Positions 1-5,191 of a stretch of 64,000 bases of DNA are shown piece after piece. The notes beneath the pieces were generated by a model that saw only the letters and a program-made list of their open reading frames with translations, had not been told where the DNA came from and searched no databases. This DNA comes from Paenacidovorax monticola (GTDB lineage: Bacteria > Pseudomonadota > Gammaproteobacteria > Burkholderiales > Burkholderiaceae_C). The translations under genes and the position numbers were made by a program. The stretch lies in assembly GCF_014489595.1 (NCBI RefSeq), contig NZ_CP060790.1, positions 744,001 to 808,000 on the forward strand. Reading direction: 5' to 3'. Every line of letters begins with the position of its first letter. Position 1 is the first letter of the stretch.

Positions 1-699
1 TATGCAATACAGAGCCCTGACCCCATCCCGCCAACCTATCTTTTTTCCTTGTTCGTAAGTTCTTCCAAAATAGGATATGCCTACCTCATAGATGCGGCAT
101 TTCAATTTCGAAACTTTTGCAACAATCTCCGGTTCGAATCCAAATCTGTTCTCTTCGATGCTAATCGATTGAATGATCTCTCGGCGAAAGACCTTGTGGC
201 AGGATTCAATATCCGTCAAGTTCAGATTTGTGAACATGTTGGAAAGCAGCGTGAGAAATCCGTTCGCAACCCTGTGCCAGAAATAGAGGACGCGATGACA
301 GCCCCCACCGACGAAACGAGAGCTGAAGACGACATCAGCCTGGTTTGAAACAATGGGGGCGATCAAGGAGGTGTATTCGCGTGGATCATATTCAAGATCG
401 GCATCTTGGATGATCACCACATCGCCCGTGGCCTCCTTGATTCCGGATCTCAATGCAGCACCCTTGCCCTGATTTTTTTCATGAAGGATGATCTTGTCTA
501 TTTTTTTAGACAGGTCATTGACAATGATTTCTCTGGTTCCATCCGTGGAAGAGTCGTCAACAACAATGATTTCTTTGTTCGGGAAGGGGGTGGCAAAAAC
601 GGCATCGATGATGCTGCAAATGGTATTCACTTCATTGAAACAAGGAATAATAATCGACAGCTTCACTGCAGGAATATTTCCCGGTATTTTTGGATTCAT
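1..699 (-). CDS. Family 2 glycosyltransferase, C-terminus cut by window edge
   Basis: Reading the minus strand from the ATG at 697-699 gives 233 open codons up to base 1, so the end lies outside the window. The protein begins [20 protein letters not shown] and has the GT2 features: the strand-loop SIIIPCFNE, the [10 protein letters not shown] nucleotide-binding loop, the QDADLEYDP metal-binding region (D-x-D type) and a KGAALRSGI segment. This is the pattern of dolichyl-phosphate-mannose synthase-like (DPM1/GtrB) enzymes, which load a sugar from a nucleotide donor onto a polyprenyl phosphate. It starts 34 bases after the UbiA-like gene, probably in one operon. The DNA is clearly richer in A and T than the rest of the window, which suggests acquisition by transfer. 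The exact donor and acceptor cannot be told. Confidence 0.9.
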
Positions 700-733: not shown

Positions 734-1626
734 TCAAGCCCACAATACCGATGCGACCATGGCCGCCCCGATGCCCGCATAAAGCCAGCGGTAGCGCATC
801 TGCAATCGGCGCACACTCTCGCCCGTAAGGGCCTCGCGCCAAGTCTGCAGTGTCCAGTACAAATGCAGTGGATACAGCCCCACAACCAGGCTCAACGCTT
901 CTGGCACGCTGCCAGTCAGCGCCAGCACCAGCAGCAGGGCATTCGCCAGCGTGAACAACAGGAAACTGGTGGCAAAAATCCTCCGTTTCCCGAACATCAC
1001 GGCATTGGTCCGGATACCGTTGCGAAGATCGGCCTCATGATCGCGCACTTCCTGCACCAGATGGCCGGCACTGAATACGACGGCAAAGAACAGCCCGATC
1101 TCCATGCCCTTGGCATCAACCTCCTGAAAAATGGAATAGCCCAGCAAGAAATGCAGTACGCCGCCCAGCAGGTGCAGGAACGAGTTGGCAAGCGGCACAC
1201 CCTTCCAATGCGCAGGAGGTGCGGAATACAGCGCGCTTGCGGCGGCGATCATGAGTGCCACCAGGAGCGTCATTCGGCCCAATTGGCTGAAGATGGCCAG
1301 GCTCGCGGCCAGCAGCAACAGCAACAGCCACCCGATTTCGCTGCGGCGTACCCCGCGATGGAGAAACACGCCCGCAGTGCGCGCTGGATCACGGAGATCC
1401 TGGTGGACTCCTGCCCAATCATTGAGCAGGAAGACGTGGGCCACCAGCAGCACATTGCCTATCACCAGCAGCAACAGTGCCATGGCGCTATGGCCTACGG
1501 AATAACAATAACTCGCGGCAAAGATGGCCCCCAGCAAGGGGGGCCCTGAAGAACCAGGACCTCGTCAAACCGGATGCACGACAGCAGTCGCAGGGCCCAT
1601 GACCCGGGTACGGAAGAAGCCGTCAT
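734..1626 (-). CDS. UbiA-family prenyltransferase (one-base frameshift)
   Basis: An integral membrane protein of about 297 residues once one C is restored in the run at 1538-1543. The first part ([20 protein letters not shown]...) then joins the [12 protein letters not shown] frame. Both UbiA signatures are present: the first Asp-rich motif [12 protein letters not shown] and the second [16 protein letters not shown], separated by several hydrophobic helices. Family members transfer a prenyl chain from a diphosphate to an aromatic ring, a sugar phosphate or another acceptor in the membrane. The start overlaps the stop of the upstream GT-C gene (ATGA at 1623-1626), so translation is probably coupled. 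The substrate is unknown. Its neighbours argue for a lipid-carrier or glycolipid rather than ubiquinone. Confidence 0.82.
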
Positions 1627-4600
1627 GGTGCTTTTCGGCCCCGCAGGGCCACCGTGGCCACATCGCTGCCCTGGCCCTTGTCCGCTAGCAGGCCTGTGCG
1701 CTGGCTTTCCAAGTACAGCCGCAGCCAGATCGCGTAGCCGACGTCTTCTGCCCAGTAGAGCCTGCGCACGGTGGCGGAGAAATCGTTGTGATAGAGCAAG
1801 GGCGGGTTGGATTTCACCTGCAGGAAATCGTCTTTGGAGAGTTCCTGCAGGACTTCGAGCACCTGGGCCCTGCGCGGCAGGCCTTCTGCCTCGTTCCCGC
1901 CGGCCAGTTGCCACAGCATGCGGCCGGCATCCAGCCAGATCTTCTGCCCGGGTATCGTCGTCTGGGTGCGGGATGGCGGCAGCTTCAACTCGCAACCCGC
2001 CGCTTTCATGTCGGCTTGGCGCATCACGGGCACCAGGGGGCCTTGTCATAGTAGACCCAGATGCGGTCCTGGCCGGCAGCTTTTTGCAGTACATGGCACA
2101 GCGCCCGGGCGGCCGGGGGATCGGCCTGCGCCAGCCACAGGTACACATGCATCTGGATGGCGATGTCCGGAGGATTTGGGTCGGCGCCCGGATCAATGCA
2201 GCGGAACTGGCGCCGCTCCGCCAGCCAGGTCTTGTAGAGCCCTTCGGCTGTGCGGTATTGGCGCAGCGTCGCGAGCGCTTGCGCGCGCAAGGCCGTGTCC
2301 GCCCCGGGCGCTAGCCTCCAGGCGAGGGAGGTATCGTCCGCGTCCGGTGTGATGGGGCACAACCCGTAGATCGCCATCGCAGACCCGTCGGGCCGGCCGT
2401 GGTAGCGCACCAGCCCGCCCGCCTCGATCTGGTGCCGAAGGTGGGTCCGAGCCCGCTCCAGGCTGCCCGCCAGCCCCGGCGCGACGGATGGGGTGCCGAG
2501 TATGTCGACCATCATTGAGGTGACATAGGTGTTCATTTCAAAGGTGGAGTTCTCGAACCGCTCCTTGCTGGTGTAGGAGGTGCGCCAATACCCCTCGACT
2601 TGCTGCTGTCGCGTGATCAGTCCCACGGCCTTGCGCGCACTGGCAGCAAGATCCTCAGCGCCCACTGGGCGCGCGACCTTCGCGGTGGTGCTCGGCTGGC
2701 CGCCGGGCCCGGCTTCGATGTGAATGTCGTGCAGGCCGACCACCAGGTTTCTGGTGTCTCCATTGGGCAGCGGCTTGATCGTGGCCGTGTCCATGGCAAA
2801 GAAGTGGATGACGTTGCGCCCTGCGTGAAGGCGGGTGCGCACCACGATGGAGGACTTGCCTGTGAAGCTATATTCCCCCTGGCCCACCGGCACGCCGTCG
2901 TGCTGGACCATCACCGTCCGGCCGGGAACGGACAGGCCATGACCGGGGGACACCTCAAAGCGCATGTTCACATCGCGCTCCTGCCGGGACCACAGGCCAA
3001 ACACGATGCCCTCGGGGGCGCCCTGTCCCATCCACAGGAACCCCTTTTCATCGGCCCCCAGGTTCTCGACCGGCCAGGAGGTGTTGAGCAACACAGGGTC
3101 AATTCCGACCTGTCCCCTGAGCGCGCCATTCACCTCGATCAGCGGCGCTGCCGCCGGGAAGGTGGCGACTTCGAAAGGTTTTTCGTTCATGGCCGCCACA
3201 CCTTCCACCTCGAACAATCGCATGTGGGGCGTTTGCAGAGGAATCGCCTTGAGCCCTGCCTGGGTCCCGAGCCACTTCACCATTTCGCGGGTTTCAAGCT
3301 CAGGAAACCACTGCAAGCGAACCTTTTGATCGTGCTGTATCAGCACATGAGAGATATTCTGCGAGGCAATCTGCCGACTCATCTTCAAGGGATCAAAAGG
3401 GCCAGTGCCCCAAGGGATCACTGCATTGGCATACTGTGTGACCGGTGCAAAAAGAGGGTAGTCACGCACATCCTGCCCGCCAACCAGCAAAACCCGGGAC
3501 CCCGCCGGTATCACCGACCCCACGATCTCGCCAAAAGGTTCGTTGACCACTTTGGCCTCCAACGGCTGGGCCATGGCCTTTTCGGCATTGGTGGCCAACA
3601 CCCTCAGCGGGTGGTAGGCAGCATACGCGATGGCCATGGCACCCAGCACCTGGGCCCATCGCCGGACAAATATATGCCGGAAAAACAAGGCCATGCCCAC
3701 CGGCAGCAGCAATGTGTACGGACCGATCAGGAACCGCCCAGGCACCTCCGACTGGGTCATCCAGCGTGCGCCAAAAAGCACGGCCACCAGCAGAGGGATG
3801 GCCAGCAGCGTCTGCGCGGAGATGGCCGTCAGCTGTACCCGAGGCCAGGTTGCTGCCACATTGCGGACCAGAAGCACCGCCGCCGCCAACAAGGTCGGGA
3901 TCCACAACAACCCCCACAACGAGAATCTCGTGGAGTTTTCCGGCAAGGCGTAAGTGAACCTGCCGGGCCAGGGGCCCTGGCCCTCTCCGGCCAAGGGAGT
4001 TGCTGCCCCGAAGGTGGCAATGAGCTGGTTCGCAGCATTGCTGAAATGAGCCCGGGTTTCCGCAGAGACTGGCAGGCTGGGCAATTCCAGCATCAGGAAG
4101 GGGAAACGCACCGCATGGGTATACAACACTTGGCGCGTGGCATCGGAAGCCACGGTGTCACGAACCGCCTTGGGTCCCAGAGGGTGGTGGTAATGCACCG
4201 AATTGAACACCACCGGCACCAGCAACGAACTCAAGACAAGCGCACACCCCAGGCCGGCAAAAAGGGCCTTGACCCGCACAGACAGTGCCTGCTGTCCAGG
4301 CGAGCACAGAACGATCAGCAACAAGCTGGGAAGCAGAGTGAGCGGGAACGACCTGACATTGATGCTCAGTACCGAGAACACTCCCAAGAAGAAGTAATGG
4401 CTTTTTCGTCCTTCAAGGCCGGAGCACAGGGAGACCGCCCAATAGGACAGGCCCAGCAAGGTGACGATGGACCAGATCTCCGGCTTCAGCCCCACGGTGC
4501 TGGAGGCAACCAGGGGCGTGGAAAGCAGAATCAAGACACCCGCCAGAGAGGCCGTCTGATTCAGCTTCAAGGTCCGCAAAAGAAAATACTGCCCTACAGC

Positions 4601-5191
4601 AGCCAGCGGATAAGCGAGCCAGAAGATAAAACGGCCTACTGTCTCGATTTTTGTTATCAAAACCGGCCATAAAAACAACAATTCACTCCCAAAAGGAATC
4701 ATTGTCTGCCGGATATTGTGCGTTTCAAAGGGGAATATGCTATGGTTTTGAATCCAGTAAATGACCCGTGAGGCGTGGTACATCCTTTCATCAAAACCAG
4801 CCAAGGGCATTGCCATCTGCGTCCACAAGGAAGTCGAGATGGCAAGGCAGATAAGCACCAGTGCCAGCCACCCCCAGGCTGAAAGGCCTGATGCATAAGC
4901 GGCCAAGCCACGGCGCCATCGATCCAAGGTCGTGGCCAGCAGGCGAATTTCAGAGCGGCCTGTGCCTCCTGTGAGCCGCAGGGTCAGCCCGCAAATGATC
5001 AGCTGTACCAATATCCACATCGCTGGAGCCAACTGCTGAACCAGCGACAGCAGGCATGCTATTCCACCAATCTGGAGCATTACGCTGGCTATAAAGATCC
5101 AGAATGCATCAGAGGTTGAGTCGGTAAAATAAAATGTCCAGCGATAGGAAGGCCATAAAATCAGCAGCGCAGAGATAATAAAAAGCGTCAT
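1623..5191 (-). CDS. GT-C membrane glycosyltransferase with terpene-cyclase-like C-terminal domain (one-base frameshift)
   Basis: About 1189 residues when one base is restored in the G run at 2036-2040. Without it the frame stops at 2024, after residue 1055. The N-terminal ~500 residues have many hydrophobic helices and the GT-C loop GFDERMYHASRVIYWIQNHS (about residue 125), with the conserved acidic pair of lipid-phosphate-sugar-dependent glycosyltransferases. A soluble middle part follows. From about residue 849 there is an alpha-toroid-like domain (KAVGLITRQQ...EGYWR) carrying PDADDTSLAW near residue 949. This DxDD motif resembles the one in squalene-hopene cyclase and class II terpene cyclases. 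GT-C membership is solid, but cyclase activity is only an inference. It is first in the operon with the UbiA and GT2 genes. The start is the ATG at 5189-5191, with only a weak ribosome site. Confidence 0.75.

Follow-up and report, generated by a model that had tools for sequence, protein, structure and literature searches.

A UbiA-linked fusion of a GT-C glycosyltransferase-type domain with a predicted class II terpene cyclase-type toroid in Paenacidovorax monticola, with relatives in seven phyla

Introduction

Among the closest described systems is AsDMS, a bifunctional drimenol synthase in which a HAD phosphatase is fused to the beta domain of a terpene cyclase. Here we analyse a stretch of 64,000 nucleotides from Paenacidovorax monticola (GCF_014489595.1, NZ_CP060790.1, positions 744,001-808,000; ‘the window’, to which all positions refer), in which a toroid of predicted terpene cyclase type is joined instead to a GT-C glycosyltransferase-type membrane domain and stands next to a gene of the UbiA prenyltransferase family. 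AsDMS acts on farnesyl diphosphate and carries the motif DxDTT, whereas the family described here has DxDD; the exchange D333N abolishes its activity, and no UbiA partner is mentioned in the abstract and sections consulted (PMC9128629). The merosterolic acid synthase MstE, whose structures were solved with a prenylated benzoate according to the entry titles, is a stand-alone protein without GT-C fusion, for which we found no evidence of export; like the toroid studied here, both MstE and AsDMS do without a gamma domain. Squalene-hopene cyclase (SHC) has in common with the toroid the DxDD motif, a QW-type repeat match and a DPxxxDV block, which in SHC contains the residues D447 and H451 that serve catalysis; it differs in having beta and gamma domains and in lacking a significant direct profile match to the toroid.

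ArnT, AftD, EmbB, OST and PMT share the GT-C fold with the N-terminal part of the fused protein. Enzymes of this fold use lipid-linked donors at the outer side of the membrane, and their structures hold an acidic catalytic residue in the first large periplasmic loop. We know of no toroid of the present kind in any of these five, nor of an earlier class II terpene cyclase that works in the periplasm or is fused to a glycosyltransferase, and a search of the open-access literature (titles and starts of abstracts) found no described GT-C/terpene cyclase fusion or UbiA-toroid-GT-C gene set. The UbiA superfamily (PRK12875, chlorophyll synthase, DGGGP synthase, EboC) shares a PF01040 match with the gene in the window, whose own family is distinguished by its linkage to a toroid and by its first motif, NDWxGxxxD. 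EboC is reported to belong to a cluster required for delivery of a small molecule to the periplasm (PMC6282210).

Results

Three consecutive genes lie on the minus strand of the window: the fused gene (5191 to 1623), the UbiA gene (about 1599 to 734) and a GT2 gene (from 699; Table 1). An earlier note on this DNA had joined two open reading frames (ORFs) by a one-base repair into a GT-C/toroid fusion with the motif PDADDTSLA. Both ORFs and the motif (encoded at 2321-2347) are present as claimed, and the repair corresponds to a real frame break, for the intact homologue P0001 (1194 aa) spans both frames by tblastn, with residues 1-1060 aligned to 5191-2027 (98.0% identity) and residues 1055-1194 to 2045-1626 (98.6%). 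Nor is the fusion a chance product, as 60 of 120 listed proteins (out of 192 above threshold) join the same type of GT-C domain, hereafter type A, to a toroid. In the same 120, another membrane module is joined to the toroid in 42 proteins, and 18 are type A GT-C proteins without a toroid match. Some of these 18 are perhaps fragments; the pairs P0062/P0126, P0064/P0131 and P0071/P0181, each a GT-C-only and a toroid-only protein on equally long contigs, are probably split genes.

To model the toroid we used an alignment of 78 short relatives headed by P0125, some of which may be fragments of fused proteins. The model reached a predicted local distance difference test (pLDDT) of 92.5 and a predicted template modelling score (pTM) of 0.91; the full-length protein has a single toroid of about 325 residues. 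Foldseek matched the model to 24 chains at E <= 0.001, 23 of them named class II terpene cyclases from a few distinct proteins (AsDMS/drimenol synthase, the SHC-like 8pak and 8paj, MstE, SsDMS and SHC), with TM-scores that are moderate (0.33-0.57 by query); the remaining chain, 6ij1, is labelled only as an Actinoplanes protein. A VIA structure ranking was led by AsDMS (Z 24.9), followed by MstE (20.3), an SHC-like protein (19.8), SHC (18.6), SsDMS (18.1) and CPS (17.2), and the top glycosidase-type toroid reached 16.3. The same leading matches were obtained for the toroid within the full-length model. The fold check thus returned the class II terpene cyclase toroid that the earlier note had expected, and the domain is very probably of this class, an assignment drawn from predicted structure and motif, helped by the bridging family described below, and not from direct sequence homology.

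Conservation of the motif was assessed in close relatives and in diverse genomes. Of 240 proteins fetched, 222 had a toroid match, and 218 were aligned after four partial ones had been dropped; D955, D957 and D958 of DxDD (P0001 numbering) are kept in 218, 218 and 216 of them, D1014 in 218 and Q1018 in 217, conservation that partly reflects closeness, as these proteins were found through short words spread over the query and are mostly at least 50% identical to the window. D1014 and Q1018 sit 57 and 61 residues past D957, within the block DPxxxDVxxQ; the block of Alicyclobacillus SHC reads DPPxxDVxxH, with D447 and H451 at 71 and 75 residues past D376 (counted in the alignment). A more diverse set came from scanning two strict peptide patterns over 84,980 species genomes, which yielded 75 loci, a lower bound. 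Residues in the two pattern stretches were judged by the 218 proteins alone; outside them, E890 and N892 are invariant in 63 of 63 genome-locus toroids, and W963, D1014, W1050, Y1052, Y1053, Q1088, W1091, D1142, R1149, Y1151, W1152 and W1161 in 64 of 64.

A bridge between the toroid and SHC is provided by a cousin family, which was found without the peptide patterns through a weak genome match (63 proteins, of which 59 were aligned, 56 with DxDDT and 3 without). Its profile matches the toroid (98.5%, E 2.6e-15) as well as SHC (81.3%, E 1.2e-5; both E-values hold for single comparisons), with DxDD on DxDD in both, and control profiles of GH88 (four sequences) and UbiA stayed at or below 0.1%. 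DxDD may lie in the same repeat as in known cyclases: it is in register via the cousin family and at a comparable distance in the structure-match ranges, while the direct profile alignment is shifted by repeats. Ungapped windows compared with SHC gave QW-repeat pairs out of register as top pairs; the DxDD-DxDD pair came fifth and was the best for its own window (z 3.9), and the block around D447 ranked first as a 16-mer and as a 24-mer (z 3.1), with the SHC windows there second and fourth as 18-mer. A forced global profile run of the toroid against SHC aligned nothing useful, and when PDB sequences were searched with the toroid alignment, the two matches returned were at chance level (E 0.36 and 0.82). 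When the toroid profile was run against 398 genomes of the phylum (E <= 0.01), four matched: the genome itself, one strongly and two weakly, one of the weak ones being the cousin. This cousin (L123:7712-8587, the same as L084:1216-2091) belongs to a family of DxDD toroids of about 300 aa, for which a Pfam search gave nothing above cut-off; its neighbours on the minus strand are unassigned ORFs of 329, 796 and 1197 aa, and source names of the family include Stappia, Rhodobacter lacus and Burkholderia alba.

For the N-terminal part, the predicted type A model has a GT-C fold, with matches that include ArnT bound to undecaprenyl phosphate, AftD and EmbB. D134, in the stretch after the fifth predicted helix, is kept in 65 of 65 type A rows, and by analogy with solved GT-C structures the stretch that follows this helix would be the catalytic loop; fold and residue together support the GT-C reading of the earlier note. 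A PDB sequence search found no solved chain, either for type A (alignment run up to E 1) or for the other membrane module, type B (proteins of about 920 aa; alignment run up to E 10). The window ORF and P0001 match no curated GT-C sequence model, and only P0012 among the listed type A rows carries a precomputed PF13231. Types A and B have no profile similarity to one another, and the fold was assessed in type A only.

In the fused chain the toroid comes after the final helix of the membrane domain, and 15 of 18 hand-picked short toroid proteins begin with a signal-peptide-like hydrophobic stretch, as judged by eye without a predictor. All 218 close relatives retain four cysteines, but only 54 to 59 of 63-64 diverse toroids do. 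These features point to a toroid that is probably exported to the periplasm.

In 71 of the 77 loci L002-L078, a same-strand UbiA gene lies within 3 kb downstream of the toroid. Many of these loci are related, so that the 71 are not independent events; the queries included the loci's own UbiA genes, and the window UbiA alone found the same 71. Three of the six exceptions (L073, L076 and L077) end 0-1.7 kb past the toroid match. The window gene matches PF01040 at 71.5 bits (E 8.8e-20; cut-off 34.2), and the second Asp-rich motif is present in the linked UbiA family (E197..D204 region). All 24 UbiA members compared match PRK12875, 19 the chlorophyll synthase model and 8 EboC, with scores (far) below the curated cut-offs where shown; among solved chains, a prenyltransferase and DGGGP synthase come closest. 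This resemblance to prenyltransferases would make a prenyl chain on an acceptor a natural substrate for a DxDD toroid, in keeping with the prenylated benzoate of the MstE structures, and the linked gene strengthens the idea of a polyprenyl substrate that the earlier note had voiced from the fused gene.

The gene set reaches across seven phyla, Acidobacteriota, Pseudomonadota, Verrucomicrobiota, Planctomycetota, Chloroflexota, Thermodesulfobacteriota and Actinomycetota, the last two each represented by one metagenome bin. By tblastn, 66 of the 77 loci have type B, 7 have type A, the kind of the window, and 4 have neither. Among the 69 toroid ORFs that were called, fusion to type B is seen in 56 and to type A in 7; the other 6, some of them fragments and one the C-terminal piece of the window itself, are fused to neither. 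A tree of 90 selected toroids places type A in a single clade (98/89) nested among type B, and the stand-alone label, which includes the fragment L074 and the fusion L078, requires five changes, three of them forced by well-supported branches. Taken together, the tree and the fusion counts indicate that toroid and UbiA are the constant pair, with the membrane module exchanged around them, as far as comparison of sequences can tell. Locus L078 has a 1021 aa ORF around the toroid match (3207-4172) with a third membrane part that looks unlike types A and B by eye (UbiA at 226-1134). At L027:5580-8023 a stand-alone toroid with a lipobox-like start adjoins UbiA, and no type A or B GT-C was found in the locus, where downstream ORFs resemble, by eye, polysaccharide export and glycosyltransferase genes. 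One of the 78 short toroids, P0161 of Dokdonella soli, is named ‘Pectate lyase’ in UniRef; no such family is among the 15 listed in the domain-model search of these members.

Table 1. Features of the gene set in the window.
Feature	Position	Strand	Basis or remark
Fused gene, long ORF, 1055 aa	2024..5191	-	GT-C, alpha/beta segment, beta-sandwich and first two thirds of toroid; P0001 98% identical over residues 1-1060
GT-C membrane domain	3566..5191	-	P0001 residues 1-542
Alpha/beta segment behind GT-C domain	3197..3556	-	P0001 546-665; within ArnT alignment range
Beta-sandwich	2702..3139	-	P0001 685-830; secondary structure; weak likeness to carbohydrate-binding modules
Toroid, N-terminal two thirds, long frame	2024..2662	-	From models of P0125 and P0001, used in place of the frame-broken window protein
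DxDD motif (D955, D957, D958)	2333..2344	-	Read from sequence; conservation count
Frame break between toroid pieces	2027..2045	-	Two overlapping tblastn segments of P0001
Toroid, C-terminal third, other frame, ORF of 136 aa	1623..2033	-	Profile match E 2.9e-44
UbiA-family prenyltransferase gene	734..1599	-	Frame-broken near 1528-1549; PF01040 on 734-1537
GT2 gene, polyprenyl-phosphate-sugar-synthase-like	1..699	-	PF00535 E 1.5e-34; 3' end 24 bases beyond window (L001 13977-14699)

The predicted beta-sandwich matches the CBM35 chain 2w3j (E 2.3e-3). The frame switch in the UbiA gene was seen with the Acidovorax radicis UbiA as query, so that this genome, a single contig of 4.68 Mb, has breaks in two adjacent genes of the set. 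The breaks reflect either mutation and decay or an assembly error; intact copies exist in relatives. Measured per kb, the GC content is 0.49-0.62 throughout the first five kb of the window save one (0.66) and 0.63-0.71 throughout the following eleven save one (0.60), a dip across the gene set that would fit a horizontally acquired segment.

Members of a loose cluster of glycosyltransferase-like ORFs lie at most five ORFs away in 40 of the 68 loci with a called toroid ORF, and other recurring neighbours encode GDP-mannose dehydratase (11 loci), methyltransferase (10) and sulfotransferase (4). PF13243, a further point of difference from SHC, has no match in the P. monticola genome and matches in 2 of 20 relatives; a hopanoid enzyme is unsupported.

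Discussion

We propose that the fused protein would unite two enzyme activities on the outer side of the inner membrane. UbiA would attach a prenyl chain to an acceptor on the inner side, and the prenylated product would cross the membrane. The exported toroid, a class II beta domain, would then start ring closure, with the middle Asp of DxDD protonating the terminal double bond, a role as acid that is established for this residue in diterpene cyclases (PMC11795633). The GT-C domain would finally glycosylate the cyclised product from a polyprenyl-phosphate sugar, for which the neighbouring GT2 enzyme is a plausible source, and the end product would be a glycosylated cyclic (mero)terpenoid of the envelope. 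Fold, motif, conservation and gene linkage come from prediction and comparison; from them we infer the export of the toroid, its prenyl substrate, the order of steps and the product. We put the probability of this whole pathway at roughly 0.45. For the single step in which the modelled toroid cyclises a prenyl chain we see even odds, and we are a shade more reserved than on the pathway itself about the general claim of a widespread envelope pathway that combines a UbiA product, terpene cyclisation by an exported DxDD enzyme outside the cytoplasm and glycosylation by a GT-C domain of the same chain.

Several observations weigh against the proposed pathway. A direct comparison of profiles with SHC falls short of significance (10.6%, 2.0% and 40% probability; other repeats were aligned, out of register), a Pfam search of the 78 toroid members gave no match to terpene cyclase models, and NCBIfam gave them one match to TIGR01507 (E 0.036) and one to TIGR01787 (E 0.19), with no consistent match. 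In the structure ranking the lead over the best glycosidase toroids is large only for AsDMS and MstE, since Rv3377c is level with them and human OSC (15.6) below, and the toroid protein lacks a gamma domain and with it the classical beta-gamma double domain. The DxDD residues D955, D957 and D958 are kept in 64, 64 and 63 of 64 aligned genome-locus toroids, a biased count, as one of the two retrieval patterns contains DxDD (the other is GLVRYHG). On the side of the partner genes, the first UbiA motif has Gly in place of the central Asp of the canonical motif, L015 has no UbiA match, UbiA is on the opposite strand in L021 and upstream in L078, and only 25 of 69 loci have a GT2 gene within 1.5 kb behind UbiA. 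Finally, many of the fixed residues of the toroid are polar (E890, N892, E928, R934, Q1088, D1142 and R1149), more than a pure hydrocarbon pocket needs.

The last point bears on the alternative that survives best. Judged from the alignments, these residues would suit a substrate with a polar head, and they would equally suit a glycan, for which reason we keep real weight on a toroid that descends from class II cyclases but handles no carbocations, being instead glycan-active or acceptor-binding, with its Asp residues as acid/base on a sugar and UbiA making the lipid anchor of the glycan. We nevertheless regard it as unlikely: AsDMS and MstE stand about 8 and 4 Z units above the best glycosidase toroid, the entire DxDD is kept together with an Asp at the place of SHC D447, and the GH88 control profile scored as low as given above.

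Less probable still is that the toroid acts on the prenyl tail of a polyprenyl phosphate, free or bearing a sugar. Its substrate would then be the GT-C donor or the spent carrier, and cyclisation would mark or retire the carrier. GT-C enzymes use polyprenyl-phosphate donors, as the match to ArnT with bound undecaprenyl phosphate illustrates, toroid and membrane module are mostly one chain (63 of the 69 called ORFs), and genes resembling GT2 donor synthases come next in the 25 loci just mentioned. The linkage to UbiA (71 of 77) is, however, tighter than that to GT2, and UbiA is present in L027 although no GT-C of type A or B was found there.

We attach little probability to a UbiA that resembles decaprenylphosphoryl-phosphoribose (DPPR) synthase and supplies a pentose donor to the GT-C domain, as in mycobacterial arabinan synthesis, with the toroid as an accessory acceptor domain. 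The GT-C fold matches do include AftD and EmbB, and corynebacterial UbiA and GT-C arabinosyltransferases share one pathway, but the two decaprenyl-phosphate phosphoribosyltransferase models are matched, weakly, by just 4 and 3 of the 24 UbiA members, far behind PRK12875 and the chlorophyll synthase model, and the nearest solved chains are of other kinds; the DPPR pathway is unsupported by the model matches. That the toroid is a degenerate structural module without catalysis is very unlikely, for although the gene is frame-broken in the window genome, DxDD and many polar and aromatic residues are kept in nearly all 218 relatives and in the loci from seven phyla.

Returning to the proposed pathway, each of its domain classes is known, and it is their combination, the place of action and the partner that are not described in the literature found. 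The main line of the earlier note (a GT-C domain joined to a DxDD toroid) has held, and neither outcome that it had named as refuting, another fold or Asp residues that vary among homologues, was seen. The UbiA partner gene, the breadth of the family and the probable export of the toroid had escaped it, so that the finding is now larger: a conserved set of two to three genes around a probably exported domain of class II cyclase type. The set is compact, with UbiA and a DxDD toroid, usually accompanied by a membrane module of glycosyltransferase type, and the GT-C domain lengthens the short list of partners known from fusions with terpene cyclases, HAD phosphatase being one. Proteins of this family, which the sources call hypothetical, glycosyltransferase or nothing at all, thereby gain a working hypothesis. 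If it is true, class II cyclases would also be at work on the outer side of the inner membrane, and bacteria of several phyla would make an unrecorded class of glycosylated cyclic terpenoids.

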